Shown: in pieces, positions 46,296-55,622 of the stretch | Numbering within the stretch: position 1 is the stretch's first letter | Layout: every line of letters begins with the position of its first letter | Origin: Piscinibacter sp. XHJ-5 | Lineage (GTDB): Bacteria > Pseudomonadota > Gammaproteobacteria > Burkholderiales > Burkholderiaceae_C | DNA length: 64,000 nucleotides | Direction of reading: 5' to 3' | Assembly (NCBI RefSeq): GCF_029855045.1 | Contig: NZ_CP123228.1 | Span: 1,488,001 to 1,552,000, forward strand | Translations under genes and position numbers: made by a program | Notes under the pieces: generated by a model | What the model was told of the DNA's origin: nothing | Databases searched by the model: none | The model's input: the letters and a program-made list of their open reading frames with translations, nothing else

Positions 46296-46778
46296 GTGAG
46301 AAAGCTGCTTGCCGCCTGGCACCGTGTGCTGGTCGCGCTGCTGGTCGCCAGCGTCGCGATCCTGGTCGTCCCGGTCACCCTGCAGATCGTCTCGCGCTAC
46401 ACCCAGCTCATCCCCTCGTACATCTGGACCGAGGAGCTGTCGCGCTTCCTGTTCATCTGGATGATCATGATCGGCGCGATGATCGGCGTGCGCGAGGGCA
46501 CGCACTTCGACGTCGACGTGTGGCCCGATCTCGCCCCGAAGCCCCAGGCGCTGCTCGCCGTGGTGTCGCACCTGTGCATGCTGGTGTTCGCGATCGTGTT
46601 CGTGGCATGGGGCGTGCGCTTCGTGCGCTTCGGGTGGGACCAGACCTCGGAGCTCGCCGAGCTGCCGATGCCGTGGATCTTCGCCGCCTGGCCCATCGCC
46701 GGGCTCACGTGGATCGTGTTCCTCGGCGAGCACTTCGTCGACAACCTGCGCGTGCTCATGGCGCGTCATGAGGCATGA
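46296..46778 (+). CDS. TRAP transporter small permease, DctQ family
   Basis: 160 residues from GTG 46296. Four membrane helices: ALLVASVAILVVPVTLQIVS, FIWMIMIGAMIGV, LLAVVSHLCMLVFAIVFVAW and IFAAWPIAGLTWIVFL. The DctQ signature WTEELSRFLFIW and the short HFDVDVW loop are present. It overlaps the DctM gene by 4 bp (ATGA). Confidence 0.9.
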   Translation: MRKLLAAWHRVLVALLVASVAILVVPVTLQIVSRYTQLIPSYIWTEELSRFLFIWMIMIGAMIGVREGTHFDVDVWPDLAPKPQALLAVVSHLCMLVFAIVFVAWGVRFVRFGWDQTSELAELPMPWIFAAWPIAGLTWIVFLGEHFVDNLRVLMARHEA

Positions 46779-48094
46779 CGTCGGCCGTGCTGTCGCCGGG
46801 GATGGCCGCCCTGGTGCTGTTCGGCACCTTCTTCGCGCTGCTGGCGCTGCGGGTGCCGGTGGCGTTTTCGCTGGGACTCGCCTGCCTGCCGGTGCTGGTC
46901 ATCGAGCCGAGGCTGTCGCCGATGACGCTGTTCAACGAGACCTTCAAGGCCTACAACTCGTTCGTGCTGCTGGCAGTGCCGTTCTTCCTGCTCACCGCCA
47001 ACCTGATGAGCATCGGCGGCATCACCGACCGGCTGGTGCGGCTGTCGCGCGTGATGGTGGGCAGCCTGCCGGGTGCGCTCGCGCAGATCAATGTCGTGGT
47101 GTCGGTCTTCTTCGCCGGCATCTCGGGCTCCTCGACCGCCGACGCGGCAAGCCAGAGCAAGATCTTCATCGACGCGCAGACGAAGGAAGGCTACGACCTC
47201 TCGTTTTCCATCGCCATCACCGCCGTGTCGGCGGTGCTCGCGGTGATCATCCCGCCGTCGATCCTGATGGTGGTGTGGGGCGGCGTCATCTCCACGTCGA
47301 TCGGCGCGCTGTACCTCGCCGGCGTCATCCCCGGCCTGCTGATCGCCGGCGCGCAGATGGCCACCGTGCACGTTTACGCGGTGCGGCGCGGCTACCCCGT
47401 GTATCCGCGCGCGACCTTGCGCGAATTCGTGCTGTCGATGATCGCCTCCATCCCGGCGCTCACCACGCCGGTCATCATCGTCGGCGGCATCCTGCTCGGT
47501 TGGTTCACGCCGACCGAATCGGCGGCGGTGGCGGTGATCTATGCCGCGTTGCTGTCCATCTTCATCTACCGCGAGATGGACTGGCCCCGGCTCGTCACCG
47601 CGCTCGCCGACACCGGCCGGCTGGCGGCGCTGGCGCTGTTCTGCGTGGGCACCGCATCGGTCTTCGGCTGGCTGCTGGCGTACTACCAGATCCCGCGCGC
47701 GCTGCTCGAGAACGTGTCCGATTGGGGGATGGGCCCCATCGGCGTGGGCATGTTCATCGCCGGTGCGTTCCTTGTCGTCGGCTGCTTCCTCGATGCGATT
47801 CCCGCCATCATCATCGTCGGCACGACGCTGCAGCCGCTGGCGGCATCGGTGCAGATGCACCCGATCCAGTTCGCCATCATCGGCATCGTCTCGCTGGCGT
47901 TCGGCCTGGTGACGCCGCCCTACGGGCTGTGTCTGATGATCGCCTGTGCGGTGGCCAAGGTGCGGCTGCGGTTTGCGCTCAAGGACACCATGGTGATGCT
48001 GGTGCCGATGCTGCTCGTGCTGATCGGGCTCATCGTGTGGCCGGAGATCGCGTTGTTCCTGCCGAGGTTGCTGGCACCGGAGATGGTGAAGTAG
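46775..48094 (+). CDS. TRAP transporter large permease, DctM family
   Basis: 439 residues, the usual DctM length, about 12 membrane helices. Motifs: VPFFLLTANLMSIGG, GISGSSTADAASQSK (the serine-rich hairpin motif), ITAVSAVLAVIIPPSILMVVWG region and GWFTPTESAAVAVIYA (quoted in part), PPYGLCLMIACAVAKV near the C-terminus. It forms the Na+-driven channel with DctQ. A strong hairpin follows 17 bp after the stop. Confidence 0.92.
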   Translation: MTSAVLSPGMAALVLFGTFFALLALRVPVAFSLGLACLPVLVIEPRLSPMTLFNETFKAYNSFVLLAVPFFLLTANLMSIGGITDRLVRLSRVMVGSLPGALAQINVVVSVFFAGISGSSTADAASQSKIFIDAQTKEGYDLSFSIAITAVSAVLAVIIPPSILMVVWGGVISTSIGALYLAGVIPGLLIAGAQMATVHVYAVRRGYPVYPRATLREFVLSMIASIPALTTPVIIVGGILLGWFTPTESAAVAVIYAALLSIFIYREMDWPRLVTALADTGRLAALALFCVGTASVFGWLLAYYQIPRALLENVSDWGMGPIGVGMFIAGAFLVVGCFLDAIPAIIIVGTTLQPLAASVQMHPIQFAIIGIVSLAFGLVTPPYGLCLMIACAVAKVRLRFALKDTMVMLVPMLLVLIGLIVWPEIALFLPRLLAPEMVK

Positions 48095-48110
48095 GTGGCC
48101 CGAACGTGAC

Positions 48111-48144
48111 GCGGGCGCTCCCACCGGAGGTGTGGAGCGCCCGC
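48111..48144. terminator. bidirectional terminator-type hairpin
   Basis: GCGGGCGCTCC (48111-48121) and GGAGCGCCCGC (48134-48144) form a perfect 11-bp stem with a 12-nt loop. It stands 16 bp after the dctM stop and 20 bp after the stop of the 14-codon peptide gene on the other strand, so it can end both transcripts. Confidence 0.7.
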
Positions 48145-48164
48145 GGGTCTGGCGACAGAACCAG

Positions 48165-48209
48165 CTACATCACGTAGGGGTCCGTCCCGGACCGAGAGAT
48201 GGAAGACAT
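48165..48209 (-). CDS. 14-residue peptide gene with near-perfect Shine-Dalgarno
   Basis: The reading frame MSSISRSGTDPYVM ends in TAG and is preceded on the same strand by AAAGGAGGTGAT ending directly at the ATG. Eleven bases of this (AAGGAGGTGAT) complement the 3' end of 16S rRNA, the strongest ribosome site seen in the window. A terminator hairpin begins 20 bp after the stop, giving a compact monocistronic unit. It is not PqqA (no Glu/Tyr pair of the right spacing) and I recognise no family. It could be a RiPP-type precursor, a regulatory leader peptide, or a fixed remnant of a longer gene. Confidence 0.5.
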   Translation of the reverse strand: MSSISRSGTDPYVM

Positions 48210-48220
48210 ATCACCTCCTT
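48210..48220 (-). promoter_or_regulatory. extended Shine-Dalgarno site of the 14-residue peptide
   Basis: AAGGAGGTGAT on the minus strand, full match to the anti-SD tail of 16S rRNA, abutting the ATG at 48209. GGAGG is 4 nt from the start codon. Confidence 0.8.
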
Positions 48221-48250
48221 TCGCAGTTGACGAGCCCCTAGCGTAATGCG

Positions 48251-48274
48251 CTTTGCTACACCCCCGGTGCAAAG
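48251..48274. promoter_or_regulatory. small dyad upstream of the peptide gene
   Basis: CTTTGC (48251-48256) and GCAAAG (48269-48274) with an inner ACC/GGT pair, 41 bp upstream of the peptide start. It could be an operator or a 5' leader hairpin. The rest of 48275-48476 holds no convincing gene: a 66-codon frame on the minus strand (48456-48256) lacks a ribosome site, and no clear promoter for the divergent 1207-residue gene is seen. Confidence 0.35.
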
Positions 48275-48476
48275 GGGATGTTCGGATCACAAGGCGTCGG
48301 CGATCGCCGGCCCATGTCCGTCGTCGATGCACCCGCCCGATCGCCTTCACGATCGGGTTCCTCGTCGAAAGGCGTAGGACCATTTCCTAGTACGCCTCGG
48401 AAGTCTTCGCATTGCGTATGTCGCCGCCGCATTGCCATGATCAGCACCAGCTTCATGACGCGCGCCGCCGTATCCC

Positions 48477-51400
48477 ATGGAAAAGACAACACCCCATCCC
48501 AGCACCTCGTCGATCGTCAGAGAAGCCTTCTCCCTGGCACTCCTCGATGAGCACGACAAGCATCGACGAGCGGTCGAGTTGCTTTGCGCGAATTGCGCGA
48601 GCCCGACGTTCGCAGGCGAGTTCCAGGCGGCGCTGACCGAGTTCAAGACGCAGTGGAGCAGCGTGCGCTGCCAACTCCTGGAGTCACTGGGAGACGAGAA
48701 TCATCGGCCGCCGGCGCTCGTGCACGCCATCCTCAGCGCCAACCCCGGCCATGGCGACCCCCTGAAGGAGCTGGGCGAGATCCTCTCGTGCGCGCTTTGG
48801 CCGGCCGGTTGGCTCAAGGCGTCACCCGAGTTGTGGGACTTCGCCTTTGCCGTGGGTGCAAGCCAGCTGGCGGCACAAGGAGCCAAGGTGATCGAAGTCC
48901 TGGCGCATGGGGTGAGCTCGCTGAGCCCCGGGCCCGCGCTGATGGCGAAAGTATTCGAGCTGGTGAGCAAGACGCTTCCTCGAGCACGGGCATCGGCCCA
49001 TGCCTTGTTCGCTGCCCGCTTCGCAAGCCAACTGAACCTGGACACGTGGCACATCGTGATCACCGCGGTGGTGGACGGGCATCCCGATGACACGGATGCG
49101 GTCAAGACGCTCGTCGACGCGCTCAACTCGCCCACCTCGGCCAGTCGGGCCGCCCTGCCGGATCTGAAGCTGTGGGTGCAGCACCTGTTCAAGGATCCCA
49201 GGTATCGTGCCCTGCTGCCCGAGCTTCTGAAGTACCGCGCGGCCGCCTTCTACCCGTGCTTCGTCCCGTTCAATACCTGCGTCGTTCCCCTCCTGCCCTG
49301 TTTCAGTCTCCCGGGTTTCACCGAACACCTGATGAAACTCATGATGACCAGCGAAGACGACCCCGGGCTGCTGGTCGAGTACCTGTTGCAGCAGCGAAGG
49401 TGCCCGCCGCGCGCGGTCTATGAGATTGCCCATGGCGGCTTCCAAGGCAACGACGGTTCCTGGCTCAACCTGGTGTCGTTGGCGCTGAGCCTGGACAAGA
49501 GCGAGGAGAGTGCCAAGGCCTGCTGCCGGCTGGCGGAAAGACTCGACGCCGTTCCTGCCTTCCAGAACGACCCTCAGCGAACGAGCGCCCGCCAGCTCCT
49601 GGCCTTCGTCGACGATCCCGCGCAGCGCCTCGAAGTGCTCACCTCGATGTTGGGCAGACCCGATGTGGTCATCCCCGACTGGCTGTGGCAAGACCTGATC
49701 GACAACCTGGAGAGCCTGCTCAAGCGCAAGACGGGTTCTGGGATCGCCGACTACAGGGTCACCCATCTCGTCGACCTGGCGTTCGGCGACGAGCGGATAC
49801 GGCGGCGTCCTCAGGACCCGCGGCGCCAGCACGCGCTCATCCAGACCATCGCCAAGGCTGGAAGGATCAAGCAAGTCATCGTCGGCAGACTCCTCGACTC
49901 GACGGATGCCGTGGACGGCGGCCTGTTCACGATGCTGTTCGTGGCCGTGCCGGACGCGGCGAGTCAGCTCGACCCGCTGCAACTGCAGTTGCTCCTGCGA
50001 CGCGCCGCCAAGGTCGTTCCGCAGTTGCTGGTCCACGTGAAGACCCTCGAGCACCTCGTGCCCGACGACACGCAAGCCGGCTTCGTGGTCTCGTTGGTGG
50101 CGTACCTGTGCGAGGAAAAGCTCGGCGACACCGCGATCTGGCAGTGGCTGAAGACGCTGGCCGTGTCGGCTCAGGCACGACAGCTCAAGCAGATGGCCAT
50201 CGAGCTCGCATTGCTCGACGGCATGCAGGCGCAGTGGTGCACCGTCGAGCCCGACGGCAGCGCCGGGCTGCCGCCTGTCGTGCAACGCACTCCGGCGGCC
50301 TGGCTGCAATGCCTGCATTTCGTGCTGTACGAGGAATTCCTTGCGAAGACAGGGCAGAAGAGGGAGACGAGATCCTGGAGCCCGAAGGAGAACCCCAGCC
50401 GCACGGCGATGTACTGCAATGCGGTGAAGTCGGTGTTGAAGACCGGCCACCCGAACTGGGGCTCCATGGAGAAGGTGGTGGAGTGCCAGAAGGCGCTGCG
50501 CGCCCGATATCCGCAGATCCAGTGGGACCTGGTGCTCCACGGGGAAGACACGACCGCGCAGCCGCTGCTGACGGTCGCCGCCGGGCAGCCTCTTTTCTGC
50601 GCCATCGCGTCATGGTTGAAGGCGCTTCGCGATGCCGTGGGCGCCGTCACCGCCGCGTCGAAGGTCCTGCCCGATGAAGCAGCCAAGCGCCTCATCGGCG
50701 CGTTCGGTGTGCACTTGAAGGGGGTGCTGCTCGCACTCACGCAAGGCAGGAACGTCGCCGTCTCTGCATGGACACCCGGCAACGACTGCCAGCACCTGCT
50801 GGACGCGGTCTTCGGATCGTCGACGCAGGAGTCGATCACGCTGTGGCCGGACTTGCTGGAGGTCTTCGAAGCGAAGAAGGAAGGGGGCGGCCATGCCCTT
50901 GCGAAGCCCGTGCTCGATCACATGGCCGCCCTGCTCGGCGTGCGCACCGTGGGCGTCGACCAGGCGGGGCTCGTCGCGCTGAGCACCCTCAAGAGCCGCC
51001 ACGACGATCTGCTGAAGCTCGTCGCCGGCAAGGACTTTGCCTCCCATCTCGCCGCCTTGCGCTCGCACTTCGCGTCGCCCCGCTTCTGCACATCACCCCC
51101 GCTGGGCGCGGTGATCCAGGAGTGGGTCGATGCCATCCGCGACACCGTGCTGGCCGTGCTGGATGCGATGCAGTCGAAGACGGTGCCGGCAGAGGAGAAG
51201 AAGGTCGCCGGCGACATGCTCGCTGCCAACCTGCAAAAGCTGCTGCTGCTGCTCTATCGCAACAAGGGCCGGCAGATTGCAGGCTGGACGTTGGCGGGCA
51301 GCAGCTATGAACAGCTGCTTGTCCTGGCCTTCGAGACGATGAAGACGCCAAGCGTCGTCGACCCTCAGGTCGTTCGGTATGTCCTCAGCCAGGACGCCAG

Positions 51401-52100
51401 CGGCAAGTTCGACGTCGCGCCGGTCGTTGACGGCTACCTGAAGACGCTGTTCATGTTGCCTGCCACGAAGCTGGGTCAGGCCGTGCAGATCGCGCAAAAG
51501 CAGCTCAACAAGTGCCACACCGCGCTGCACGACTTCGTGAAAGTCAACAGTGCCACCATGGCCGACCATGAAGCGGCGTTCGGCTACTGCACCCTGGCCC
51601 TGGTGGACAAGGACAGTGGAGAAGGCCTGGTGGTGGGAGCCAACGTCGCCAGTCCGTTGTCGCCCTTCGGCGGGGACCATGCCACCGAGGTGATCGATTG
51701 GCTGACGGGTCCGTGCTTGGTGGCGCTCGTGCGCGACGAGAACCACGACGTGATCGCCCTCGCCACGTGTGTGCTGTCCCAGCTGAAGAACGACCACGAC
51801 TGCACCCTGATCGTGACGGAGATCTCGCTCGCACCGCGGCTTCGCGCGCTCGTCGGTGGGGCGCTGAACCGGCGCGGCCGCGCGATCATGGACGCGCTGA
51901 CCGCCTGGCTGCCGAGGGCGGGCCGACGCGTGGGTGCCGCGCGGACCGTGTGGGTTGGAGATGTGCAAGGCTGGGCCCCGAGTGGAAATCGGCCACGACA
52001 GGAGTTTCAAGCAAGCGCCGACATGCTGCAGCCGCCGTTGCTGGAGGACTTCAGTGCCTCGAGCCTCCCGCCTTCCCGGCGATACCGCGGCCTGGATTGA
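48477..52100 (+). CDS. very large orphan protein of unknown function (1207 residues)
   Basis: ATG 48477 is the first in-frame start; no SD is visible before it, and the next Met is far downstream. The protein has no signal peptide and no membrane helix, and is mostly long amphipathic helices with Leu-rich repeats of ~35-45 residues, as in HEAT/ARM-like solenoids (for example LLPELLKYRAAAFYP, LVEYLLQQRRCPPRAVYEIAH). About residues 1030-1130 a mixed alpha/beta segment (FGYCTLALVDKDSGEG, CLVALVRDENHDVIALAT) breaks the solenoid pattern and may be a small enzyme-like or binding domain. Codon use is less GC-extreme than neighbours. No family recognised. Convergent with an amidase remnant and the kinase-NACHT gene. 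Confidence 0.75.
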   Translation: MEKTTPHPSTSSIVREAFSLALLDEHDKHRRAVELLCANCASPTFAGEFQAALTEFKTQWSSVRCQLLESLGDENHRPPALVHAILSANPGHGDPLKELGEILSCALWPAGWLKASPELWDFAFAVGASQLAAQGAKVIEVLAHGVSSLSPGPALMAKVFELVSKTLPRARASAHALFAARFASQLNLDTWHIVITAVVDGHPDDTDAVKTLVDALNSPTSASRAALPDLKLWVQHLFKDPRYRALLPELLKYRAAAFYPCFVPFNTCVVPLLPCFSLPGFTEHLMKLMMTSEDDPGLLVEYLLQQRRCPPRAVYEIAHGGFQGNDGSWLNLVSLALSLDKSEESAKACCRLAERLDAVPAFQNDPQRTSARQLLAFVDDPAQRLEVLTSMLGRPDVVIPDWLWQDLIDNLESLLKRKTGSGIADYRVTHLVDLAFGDERIRRRPQDPRRQHALIQTIAKAGRIKQVIVGRLLDSTDAVDGGLFTMLFVAVPDAASQLDPLQLQLLLRRAAKVVPQLLVHVKTLEHLVPDDTQAGFVVSLVAYLCEEKLGDTAIWQWLKTLAVSAQARQLKQMAIELALLDGMQAQWCTVEPDGSAGLPPVVQRTPAAWLQCLHFVLYEEFLAKTGQKRETRSWSPKENPSRTAMYCNAVKSVLKTGHPNWGSMEKVVECQKALRARYPQIQWDLVLHGEDTTAQPLLTVAAGQPLFCAIASWLKALRDAVGAVTAASKVLPDEAAKRLIGAFGVHLKGVLLALTQGRNVAVSAWTPGNDCQHLLDAVFGSSTQESITLWPDLLEVFEAKKEGGGHALAKPVLDHMAALLGVRTVGVDQAGLVALSTLKSRHDDLLKLVAGKDFASHLAALRSHFASPRFCTSPPLGAVIQEWVDAIRDTVLAVLDAMQSKTVPAEEKKVAGDMLAANLQKLLLLLYRNKGRQIAGWTLAGSSYEQLLVLAFETMKTPSVVDPQVVRYVLSQDASGKFDVAPVVDGYLKTLFMLPATKLGQAVQIAQKQLNKCHTALHDFVKVNSATMADHEAAFGYCTLALVDKDSGEGLVVGANVASPLSPFGGDHATEVIDWLTGPCLVALVRDENHDVIALATCVLSQLKNDHDCTLIVTEISLAPRLRALVGGALNRRGRAIMDALTAWLPRAGRRVGAARTVWVGDVQGWAPSGNRPRQEFQASADMLQPPLLEDFSASSLPPSRRYRGLD

Positions 52101-52144: not shown

Positions 52145-52291
52145 TCACCCCAACCCTCTACCGGGATCACGGCTGGAGTCGGGCGCCACGTCGAGCAGCG
52201 TGACGGGGAGCACGTCGCCGGCCTTTGCGCCGCGCACGTACAGCGGACCGGTCAGCGGATGGACGCTCAGACCGATCGGGCTCGGGTCGCC
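52145..52291 (-). pseudogene. acetamidase/formamidase remnant
   Basis: A minus-strand frame reads DPSPIGLSVHPLTGPLYV, then RGAKAGDVLPVTLLDVAPD, and ends DPGRGLG-stop. HPLTGPxYVxGAxxGDVLxVTLLD is the hallmark early region of the acetamidase/formamidase (FmdA/AmdA) family, normally about residues 40-90 of a ~310-residue enzyme. Everything before and after is missing. Its upstream end coincides with the last codons of the kinase-NACHT gene, which runs into it in another frame. Confidence 0.75.
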
Positions 52292-55029
52292 GCATGCGGA
52301 TACAGCCCTGCGAAATACTCCAGCAGCGCCCGGTGCACGAACGCATAGCCGCCGCCGACGCGGTGCACGAAGATGCGCTCGGCCGCGAACTCGAGGAACT
52401 GCGCATAGCGCCACGGCGCGAAGCCGTTGCGCCACAGCAGCAGGCGCAGGATCAGGTGCTGCAGGCACGGGTACGCGCCGGCAATGAGGGCGGTGATCAG
52501 GCTGAACAGCGGCACGAAGAACGCCACGCCGGGCAGGCCGATGCTGACCATGGCCGCGGCCGCGCCGATCGCGGCGCCGGCCAGACCGCCGCGCACGGCA
52601 TTGCGCAGCGACAGCCGGATTCCCTGATTGGGCTCCGCGATGCGCTCGCCCTCGCTCAGTGCCGGCTCCAGATCGAGGCCGGCGAAGTAGCAGAAGGCCA
52701 GCGCTGCCGCGAGGCCGACGACCAGGCCCGCCGCCGGGTTGAAGACCAGCGAGACGCCGGCGTACAGCAGCACGGCGACTCCCACGCCGCGCGCCAGCTT
52801 CGTTCCCGTGTCCCGGCGCAGCGAGGACAGCGACCAGCCGAGCCGCGTGACCGGCCGGATCTGGTCGCCCCAGCCCGAGCAGCCGAAGGCGAGCCCGCCG
52901 GCGAGGCCGAACAGCAGCGACACGGGCAGGCTGAAGGCGAAGTCGCCGGCGAAGTGGCCGCCCAGGCCGAGGATCAGTCCCGTGAGCAGCCCGCACAGCA
53001 CGATGGACCCGCCTCCCGCGGCCCATCGCTCGATGGGACGCGGCAGCCAGCAGGGCTGCATCCATTCGAGATAGAAGACGCTCTGGTGGTGGGCGAGCAT
53101 CGCGTTCGCGAGCCAGCCGAGCCAATGCGTGGCGCGTTCCGGCGTGTAGCGCGTGGCCGGGCTGCGGCGCTTGAACATGGCGCCGGCGTATGCGGCGAAC
53201 AGCTGCGTGCGCCGCTGCGCCGGCGTGCCCTGCGAAGGCATGGCGGTGCCTTCCTGGTAGGCCAGCGCTGCGATGCTCAGCAGCAGCGGCGTCGTGAGCA
53301 GTTCGCGCAATGCCTCGTCGTGGCGCAACGCGGCGCGCACGCCATCCAGGCACGGTCCGGCGCGCCCGAGATAGTCGTCGACCTGCCGCCGCGTGAGCGA
53401 CTGGATGACGACCGCCTGCCCCAGGCGGGGACGAACCGGCAGCGCGTCGAAGTCGGACAGCCGGCTGCAGACCGCCATCGACAGTTCCCCGTGCTCCTTG
53501 CAGTGCGCATTGATGGCAGCGACGCAGTCGGCGCGATGGGCCGGGGCGACCTCGTCCAGACCGTCGAGCAGCAGGATCAGCTGGTTGCGGGCCAGGCACG
53601 CGCGGCTCGCCCCTGGCGGAATGTCGTAGCGCTTGTCCAGCTCGTCGATCAGCCATTGGACCAGCGGCAGGCGCCGGTCGGCCCAGGTCGACAGGTGAAG
53701 GACGACCGGCACCGGCTGCGACTCGTCCTGCCGGGCGCGCTCGAGCAGCGCAGCCGCCAGGTCGAGCAGGAGGGTGGTCTTGCCCGCGCCTGGCGCGCCG
53801 AGGATGAGCAGCGCCTGCCCGGAGCGCTCGAAGACGTCGGAGATGGGCGTGCCCTGCGGTATCGGTCGCGGCGCCTGATCGGGTGTGCGCACGACGAGGT
53901 CCCACGGATGCTCGATCGCATCGGGCCGCAGGTCGAGCCCCAGCTCGATCATCAGCGCGGCATGCACCGAATGCCTGAGCACGCCGTCGATCCAGAACGC
54001 CTGGACCTTGCCGATCAACGAACGCCGCGTGCGCAGCAGCGTTCCGTGCTGAGCCTCGATCGCATCGAGCCGCTCGCCCAGGGCCTCGGCGAGCGCGGCA
54101 GCCGAGGGATAGCGCTCGCCCGGGTCGGTGGCGGTGGCCCGGGCGACGATCTGCGACAGCGCCGCGTCACCCACCTCGCCGGCGGGGGCCTGCCGCCGCC
54201 CGGACAGCAGCTCGCCCAGCGTGATCCCCAGCGCGTACACATCGATGGTCGGCGTGGCGGCGACCCGCTCGCCGCCGAGCTGCTCGGGGCTCATGTACGC
54301 CGGTGTGCCGCAGAGGCGCCCCATTGCATCGCCGAGCGTGGAGCCGCCCATGGTCTCGGCAAGTCCGAAGTCGATGACACGCGGCTCGCCGCGCGCGTCG
54401 ACCAGGATGTTCGCGGGCTTCAGGTCGCGGTGGATGACACCACGCCGGTGCGCATGGTCCACCGCGTCGCAGACCCCCAGGAACAGGCGCAGGATCCCGG
54501 CGATGCCCAGAGCGCTGCGGCGCTCGGCGACGTAGTCGTTCAACGGCGTGCCGTCGACCAGCTCCATCGCGATGTAGAGGCACTCGCCGGCCCGATCGTG
54601 CGGGCGGTGGTGCCCGCCGTCATAGATGCGCGCGATGCCCTTGTGCTCCAGCCTGACCAGCGTGCCGATCTCGCCGAGGAAGCGACGCTGCGAGAGCTGG
54701 GGCTCGTCGAGCATCAGCGCGGGATGGATGAGCTTGACGGCCACCTCGCGCTCGATGCCGTCGGCGAAGGCCTGCGTGGCGCGGTACACCGCACCCATGC
54801 CGCCGCAGCCGATGCGCTCGCCGAGCAGCAGGTTGCGGATGCGCTCGCCGCTGCGGCAGCGGTCGATGTCGGGCGTCAGTCCGAGATGCAGCTCGACCAG
54901 GGCCAGCACGTCCGCGTCTTCGGTCGGCAGCGCGTGCAAGGCGCCCGGGCGTGCGCCGGCCTCCAGCGTCTCGAGCTGCTCGACCAGCTCGAAATAGCGC
55001 TCCCACTGGCGCTCGGTCAGCGATCGCAT
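52267..55029 (-). CDS. Ser/Thr protein kinase - NACHT NTPase - membrane fusion protein
   Basis: 920 residues from ATG 55029. Kinase domain (~65-335): glycine loop RIGCGGMGAVY (72-82), Lys99 in VAVKL, HRDLKPANIL (~195-204), VIDFGLAETM, CGTPAYMSPEQL; catalytically complete. NACHT domain: P-loop LGAPGAGKTTLL (~409), Walker B LILLLDGLDEV (~483-493), then the HRADCVAAINAHC and SRLSDFDALPVRPRLG segments typical of NACHT. A polytopic membrane region follows (~660-850, Gly-rich helices), and a C-terminal block VGGGYAFVHRALLEYFAGL that ends many NACHT proteins of cyanobacteria. The last ~7 codons (ATRARSV) come from amidase-remnant DNA. Overlaps the sigma-factor gene by 13 bp. Confidence 0.87.
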   Translation of the reverse strand: MRSLTERQWERYFELVEQLETLEAGARPGALHALPTEDADVLALVELHLGLTPDIDRCRSGERIRNLLLGERIGCGGMGAVYRATQAFADGIEREVAVKLIHPALMLDEPQLSQRRFLGEIGTLVRLEHKGIARIYDGGHHRPHDRAGECLYIAMELVDGTPLNDYVAERRSALGIAGILRLFLGVCDAVDHAHRRGVIHRDLKPANILVDARGEPRVIDFGLAETMGGSTLGDAMGRLCGTPAYMSPEQLGGERVAATPTIDVYALGITLGELLSGRRQAPAGEVGDAALSQIVARATATDPGERYPSAAALAEALGERLDAIEAQHGTLLRTRRSLIGKVQAFWIDGVLRHSVHAALMIELGLDLRPDAIEHPWDLVVRTPDQAPRPIPQGTPISDVFERSGQALLILGAPGAGKTTLLLDLAAALLERARQDESQPVPVVLHLSTWADRRLPLVQWLIDELDKRYDIPPGASRACLARNQLILLLDGLDEVAPAHRADCVAAINAHCKEHGELSMAVCSRLSDFDALPVRPRLGQAVVIQSLTRRQVDDYLGRAGPCLDGVRAALRHDEALRELLTTPLLLSIAALAYQEGTAMPSQGTPAQRRTQLFAAYAGAMFKRRSPATRYTPERATHWLGWLANAMLAHHQSVFYLEWMQPCWLPRPIERWAAGGGSIVLCGLLTGLILGLGGHFAGDFAFSLPVSLLFGLAGGLAFGCSGWGDQIRPVTRLGWSLSSLRRDTGTKLARGVGVAVLLYAGVSLVFNPAAGLVVGLAAALAFCYFAGLDLEPALSEGERIAEPNQGIRLSLRNAVRGGLAGAAIGAAAAMVSIGLPGVAFFVPLFSLITALIAGAYPCLQHLILRLLLWRNGFAPWRYAQFLEFAAERIFVHRVGGGYAFVHRALLEYFAGLYPHAATRARSV

Positions 55030-55622
55030 CGGACGACGGCGGTCCCTTCGCCGAGCGCGCGCAGGATCTCGTCGTGCAGCAGCACGCGAGCCTTCTCCCA
55101 GTGCCGCCGGACGGTGCGCTCGGCCACGCCCAGCAGCTGCGCGGTCTGCTCCACCGTGAGTCCGCCGTAGTAGCGATGCCGCGCCACGGCAGCCCACTCG
55201 GGATGGCGCCGCTCCAGCACCGCGAGGGCATCGGCCAGCGCCGCGATCACCTCGGGACGCTCGTCGAGCGCGCGCTCGAGGTCGTGCGGCTGGAAGTCGG
55301 CCAGCCGCAGCAGGTCACCGGCCGGGACATCGTCGATGTCGACCGGTCGATGCGCGCGCTTGTGCGCGCATCGGCGCCGGCCGTGGTCCTTGAGCGCGCG
55401 ATCCATCGCGCGGTACATCGCCGCCAGGAAGTGCTCGCGGTTCTCCCAGGCGACCTCGCTCCAGTCCTGGCCGCACAGCTTCTGGCGCCGCAGTGCCGTG
55501 AGGACCAGCCCGGTGGTCTGCAGCGACTGTGCATTGGCCTCGAACCGCAGCATCCGCCGTGCGATGCCCCGAGCTTCGTCGAGCAAGCGATGCACGTTGT
55601 TCCAGGTGATCCTCGGCTCCAT
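55017..55622 (-). CDS. STPK-associated ECF-type sigma factor (TIGR02999-like)
   Basis: 201 residues from ATG 55622; ATG 55643 is a possible alternative (neither has a strong SD). The sigma-2 region LLDEARGIARRMLRFEANAQSLQTTGLVLTALRRQK (quoted as its core SLQTTGLVLTALRRQ) and the sigma-4 helix-turn-helix (YYGGLTVEQTAQLLGVAERTVRRHWEKAR, in part) are typical of the ECF-like group that is encoded beside Ser/Thr kinases. It overlaps the kinase-NACHT gene by 13 bp. In the characterised EcfP-PknT pair of Vibrio the kinase phosphorylates and activates the sigma factor; the same logic is inferred here. Confidence 0.83.
   Translation of the reverse strand: MEPRITWNNVHRLLDEARGIARRMLRFEANAQSLQTTGLVLTALRRQKLCGQDWSEVAWENREHFLAAMYRAMDRALKDHGRRRCAHKRAHRPVDIDDVPAGDLLRLADFQPHDLERALDERPEVIAALADALAVLERRHPEWAAVARHRYYGGLTVEQTAQLLGVAERTVRRHWEKARVLLHDEILRALGEGTAVVRCDR

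Follow-up and report, generated by a model that had tools for sequence, protein, structure and literature searches.

The best explanation of the element described here, to which we give about an even chance, is that it forms a stand-alone gene whose product, a structured small RNA of ~125 nt, works by ribosome capture. It lies on the minus strand at 48229-48107 of the window, by which we mean the whole 64,000-nucleotide stretch of DNA analysed. In alignments of the relatives that carry it, conservation extends to the ribosome site, the start codon, the short reading frame and hairpins 2 and 3, and on the best reading the mini-ORF matters as an ORF and not for its sequence. From these features we infer transcription, ribosome binding, translation and a regulatory outcome.

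Reading the sequence of the minus strand places a 13-nt extended Shine-Dalgarno (SD) sequence, GAAAGGAGGTGAT, at 48222-48210, followed without a gap by ATG at 48209-48207. The mini-ORF that begins there, MSSISRSGTDPYVM (48209-48165), has 14 codons and ends in a TAG stop whose last base is 48165; 20 nt further on, a perfect 11-bp stem begins (48144-48134 with 48121-48111). This layout is the one given in the initial annotation. The small gene pictured there, marked by an extreme ribosome site, a brief leader and a hairpin at the 3′ end, is borne out and proves to be conserved beyond its own genome. Against the covariance model R1, the element as a unit scores 132 bits over model positions 1-122, a value to be read in the knowledge that its own sequence is among the 14 from which the model was built; the homologues themselves came from a DNA search that predates it. 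The element is an RNA-like gene of ~125 nt.

Three hairpins are predicted for the transcript. In a single-sequence fold, hairpin 1 (48218-48195) pairs GGAGGUG of the SD (48218-48212) with a stretch running from the end of codon 3 through codon 5 (48201-48195), leaving the AUG in the loop. Hairpin 2 (48193-48146) is closed by a GGUC...GACC stem and contains the stop codon, and the GC-rich hairpin 3 (48145-48110) forms the 3′ end. The latter is probably a terminator without a T run: a scan with the terminator consensus found no T tract, though the hairpin is conserved. Upstream, a −10-like box, TACGCT (48245-48240), is conserved in the aligned loci of the relatives, 14 of 17 of which read TAC[CG]CT (TAACCT, CAACCT and TACGAT in the other three), and it sits at a near-fixed distance of 19-22 nt ahead of AAGG in the 17 loci. 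A scan with the sigma-70 consensus returned no promoter for the element. The dyad that had been proposed at 48251 overlaps this box, and by eye no such dyad is kept in the aligned upstream regions.

How unusual is the ribosome site? The sequence AAGGAGGTGAT, which we take to be the reverse complement of the 16S tail, occurs exactly once on the two strands of the 64 kb, with one further site at one mismatch and 16 at two. In the 6.65-Mb genome, the 17-nt pattern of SD plus start is found in one place when up to two mismatches are allowed, and the full element likewise gives a single DNA-search match. All 13 nt of the SD are presumably complementary to the 3′ tail of 16S rRNA. Table 1 of PMC10783764 gives the betaproteobacterial SD as AAGGAGG, i.e. 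7 nt, meaning that 13 contiguous complementary bases come near to twice the listed length. Because the stretch is conserved in other genera, its sequence record marks it as more than chance. SDs nearly as strong also precede ordinary phage-type genes: in six of six viral-contig matches, GAAAGGGGGTGAT stands ahead of ORFs of 63-84 codons and the rest of the RNA is absent. Among the viral contigs, L274 and L276-L279 show a recurrent gene start in which GAAAGGGGGTGATATGTCTGA precedes an 84-codon ORF. A 16S rRNA remnant read backward was considered as a source of the stretch and rejected, there being no rRNA match in the window. Searched against Rfam, the whole window yields no family at the cut-off, and the interval 48050-48350, taken up to E=10, yields two weak matches to microRNA families and nothing else.

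A DNA search of the family matched 23 of 399 genomes at E<=0.01; 16 of these have the element, and the other seven, being short partial matches, were dropped (G077, G083, G116, G126, G219, G297 and G382; in G116, G126, G219 and G083 the matching sequence has no SD). A DNA search of the genus shows it in two of the four other genomes there (G002, G003). The covariance model, built from 14 sequences, recovered the same 16 of 398 family genomes, spread over 8 of 141 genera, plus weak matches of 23-25 bits in G083, G124 and G135, all without an SD. The model was run on the family and on the order-level sample below with tightened filters, and only the top candidates in each genome were scored, a setting under which weak or extra copies can escape. 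Genus g122 has the element in five of six genomes. An order-level sample of 379 genomes, some of them from the same family, returned the own genome and one doubtful match of 24 bits in G535, and nothing else. The G535 match, left uncounted as it sits among CCTCCTT/AAGGAGG inverted repeats, is a doubtful relative from another family (L204:1500-1640) in which AAGGAGGGGAAATGTCTTCGTTCTC lies within the repeat cluster. Among named genomes sharing a 14-mer, at least three of at least 117 loci contain the element, namely those of Ramlibacter monticola (L114), Burkholderiales bacterium SH_71_45 (L047) and Burkholderiaceae bacterium TGS_PRO28 (L127); the last two duplicate the elements in L160 and L153, respectively, and are not counted.

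Across 18 distinct copies, the exact 13-mer GAAAGGAGGTGAT is present in 10 and AAGGRGGTG in all 18, and the mean column entropy over the SD is 0.12 bits (17 copies). The start codon that follows is ATG in 17 copies and GTG in one. The frame spans 12-15 codons in 17 of the 18; in the remaining copy (G003), a 32-bp tandem duplication shifts the frame, which then runs to 23 codons. In L165 and L166, hairpin 2 contains an additional inserted hairpin and the 5′ flank is different (GATAAGGAGG and GACAAGGAGG); the two may represent a second subfamily.

Over 14 sequences and 27 pairs, 96.0% of the cells are paired, vs 37-51% with the partner slid, and six of the 27 pairs show changes on both sides. 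None of 500 shuffles matched the alignment in percentage of cells paired, in both-side counts or in covariation score, while 101 of 500 matched it in the number of pair types. Both-side changes are concentrated in the inner stem of hairpin 2 (94.0% paired; four of six pairs), with two of 12 pairs in hairpin 3 (98.2% paired) and none of four in the outer stem of hairpin 2, which is paired in 100% of cells. The helix of hairpin 1 is more tentative, with 90.0% of cells paired and no both-side changes. Restricting the comparison of hairpin 2 to the nine sequences of subfamily A gives 99 of 99 cells paired and both-side changes in three of 11 pairs, all three stemming from one sequence, L164; here, one of 500 shuffles equalled the pairing and 65 of 500 the pair types. 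By eye, and as a matter apart from these statistics, the apical stem differs in sequence and persists in several single folds. There are exceptions: L163 folds singly without hairpin 2, several folds show hairpin 1 displaced or shortened, and the sequence of L166 stops before the end of hairpin 3.

Fold energies weigh against the structure. The whole-RNA z-score of −5.2 comes mostly from the 3′ hairpin and was set aside as evidence; without that hairpin, 17 sequences are scarcely stabler than shuffles (mean z −1.1), and the reverse strand does about equally well (−1.0). The comparison of strands by minimum free energy is uninformative (mean z −4.1 vs −3.9), and the 47 G-U to 2 A-C cells were counted on the strand on which the structure had been chosen. 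Taken over the aligned sequences, hairpins 2 and 3 are kept, with compensatory changes in hairpin 2, fewer in hairpin 3 and none in hairpin 1.

If the element is translated, its product might be what matters. A small-peptide gene or a dual-function RNA, in which a peptide of 12-15 residues beginning MSS.S.S is the relevant product, is a minority reading to which we give perhaps one part in five of our belief. It would account for the strong SD, start codon and short frame found in 18 of 18 copies and for the recurrence of N-terminal serine codons, TCT being codon 2 in 13 of 17 copies and codon 5 in 15 of 17. However, tests by codon position and by synonymous change give no sign of coding selection. 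Over codons 2-8 of 17 copies, the mean entropy is 0.685 bits at the first codon position, 0.673 at the second and 0.546 at the third, which leaves no excess of variation at the third. Of 191 single-base codon differences among 14 distinct sequences, 49 are synonymous (0.257, vs 0.285 expected), a rough test given that pair counts are non-independent and that codons 4-5 also pair with the SD. The C-termini vary, partly through indels (YVM, RPM, YLL, DPD, LST, LPT, YDTL); besides the duplication that shifts the frame in G003, a 1-nt indel changes it between L159 and L114. Nor do the loci share any gene for processing or transport. By these rough tests, the peptide appears not to be conserved, and nothing speaks for selection at the amino-acid level.

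The initial annotation had likened the gene to precursors of ribosomally synthesised peptides (RiPPs), and this likeness does not hold up: selection on the peptide is not detected, indels break the frame, neither a core nor a leader peptide is conserved and, within up to 6 kb either side of 17 loci, no modifying or export gene and no other neighbour is kept alongside. It had also named, as a result that would count against the gene, a peptide varying as freely as the noncoding bases around it. The peptide is indeed unconserved, but conservation does hold for the ribosome site and the hairpins, and the feature itself therefore stands.

The same GGAGGUG could serve as the seed of a base-pairing small RNA that sponges CCUCC-bearing RNAs, such as those of family RF02278, a Betaproteobacteria toxic small RNA. 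We consider this improbable, at about half the weight of the peptide. In its favour, RF02278 is represented in the own genome, and its sequences carry UCUCCUCCACCUCC or a similar stretch. Yet only ~7 consecutive pairs could form with such a partner, by eye, vs 13 with the 16S tail, and a conserved start codon with a short frame would be unneeded. The RF02278 matches themselves, at C1:950952-951015, 2805589-2805649 and 1653297-1653368 (L177-L179), contain CCUCC stretches; one is over the cut-off and two weaker ones are below it.

The surroundings of the element bear on whether it is an RNA gene at all. It lies between a convergent dctM gene (46775-48094, Pfam DctM) and a divergent gene for a protein of 1207 residues (48477-52100), which had been proposed as its partner. 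The two do not travel together: the 1207-residue gene has a match in one of 398 genomes, its own, vs 16 of 398 for the element. A Pfam scan of this gene gave no match, and the own genome encodes a distant paralogue at 860969-863818 (27-33% identity). Convergent to the 1207-residue gene, which is on the plus strand, the window has on its minus strand (52267-55197) a gene for a 976-residue Ser/Thr kinase and NACHT-type protein (Pfam Pkinase, NACHT), whose kinase domain matches the PADLOC PD-T4-6 kinase models; together, the two genes may make up an island for defence or signalling.

When flanks of up to 6 kb were compared in six frames around the 17 loci, eight of which have less than 6 kb on one side, no neighbour proved common to all. 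Twelve matches between flank fragments were seen, all at differing distances and some perhaps in non-coding frames; they link G000-G166, G000-G003, G225-G253, G360-G417, G062-G253, G062-G225, G062-G318 and G062-G125. The strongest is G062-G253 (up to 67% identity), that of G000-G003 joins TRAP DctM proteins (30% identity), and a domain scan of two flank-match genes returned MFS (G225) and response regulator-GGDEF (G062). Within genera g1, g12 and g163, the loci compared had no match beyond the element itself at the threshold used. The flanks of the G360 locus are scattered across its genus, g122. The dctM matches of congeners, at 31-42% identity, are useless for an empty-site test. In G360, a stretch of ~270 bp with perfect 28-bp terminal inverted repeats (L207:3873-4143), lying immediately upstream of the small RNA, looks like a MITE, and parts of it recur elsewhere in G360 and in G125, G417 and G766.

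Immediate neighbours that differ even inside genera, together with the long palindrome of hairpin 3, are what a mobile or repeated palindromic DNA element would show, and this reading, on which the element is not an RNA gene, we regard as quite unlikely, though not as the weakest of all. Against it, the own genome has one full copy, and one copy was reported per relative among the best candidates scored, second rows being the reverse strand or the 3′ hairpin. Searches of 72,556 plasmid and 50,697 phage records gave no match to the element, and the polarity of SD, start codon and −10 box is conserved. Moreover, in three of the five g122 loci (G125, G225 and G766) matching blocks of sequence are found on the same side of the element; their distances from it differ, and a short one of ~500 bp is ordered differently in G125 and G225. 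The element thus seems, from these blocks, to have been inherited in place in the three genomes with local rearrangement, and the mobile-element reading is toned down because of them.

Least probable of all, and by our estimate very improbable, is the initial suggestion of a leader peptide, or attenuator, for an adjoining gene: a short ORF, hairpins and a terminator-like end would fit, as would a co-directional downstream gene in two of 16 loci (G003, G292), but by rough gene calls the next downstream gene is convergent in 12 of the 16 and unclear in two (G170, G143), dctM is convergent in the window, and no downstream family is shared among the loci.

We return to the favoured reading, a small RNA that captures ribosomes. 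Its transcription would start a few bases past the −10-like box, placing the 13-nt anti-16S-tail stretch at the 5′ end of the RNA, partly folded onto codons 4-5 with the AUG exposed in a loop. A 30S subunit would bind there, open hairpin 1 and initiate; the ribosome would then read 12-15 codons, halt within hairpin 2 and come to cover its 3′ half, with hairpin 3 terminating and protecting the RNA. The likeliest outcome would be regulation at the RNA level, either by titrating initiating ribosomes or by letting the RNA's own translation switch hairpin 2 between an exposed and a hidden state; ribosome capture might also serve to stabilise the RNA or go along with base pairing. If true, this would be an RNA family, so far unlisted, that conserves a ribosome site and the presence of an ORF but not the encoded peptide, and it would let one ask directly whether a tiny translated RNA can serve bacteria for nothing but binding or sensing ribosomes. 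It would also be a caution that an extreme SD with a tiny ORF, easily taken for a micropeptide with a function, can be the sign of a device acting at the RNA level. Among the open-access papers searched, none describes such a family by its title or abstract opening.

Several known systems share parts of this design. PqqA and other RiPP precursors combine a tiny ORF with a strong SD, as the element does; in contrast to them, its peptide is not conserved and its loci have no modifying enzyme in common. Extended, start-proximal SDs, with short ORFs among the sites, have been reported in Staphylococcus aureus, although they are described there as a trait of that species' translation (PMC13009471). 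RF02278 resembles the element as a small stand-alone betaproteobacterial RNA with a terminator hairpin (PMC4603805, PMC7011215), and has been suggested to meet ribosome binding sites (PMC7011215). However, it carries CCUCC, the opposite polarity, over 64 model positions, and its covariance model finds no match in 48050-48350 up to E=10.

Nearest in layout is CC2171 (RF01867), a small RNA of Caulobacter. The scores exclude membership of that family: L164 reaches 21.2 bits (E 1.2) vs a cut-off of 75, the other eight loci searched give no match, and neither do the own genome at E<=1 and the window up to E=10. Most intergenic noncoding RNAs of Caulobacter are reported to be untranslated (PMC4117421), which speaks against translation provided that CC2171 is among them. 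The remainder of the RNA aligns poorly, but the Rfam consensus opens, when set beside L164, with CAACAAUCGAAAGGAGGUGAUCCAGUGUCU: CAAC, an extended SD and a possible start codon. We tentatively propose, as a rather improbable conjecture, a class of ribosome-titrating small RNAs, serving to detain initiating ribosomes, in Burkholderiales, and perhaps, with CC2171, in Caulobacter, that would be defined by a near-maximal SD within a foldable 5′ hairpin and a sequence-neutral mini-ORF.
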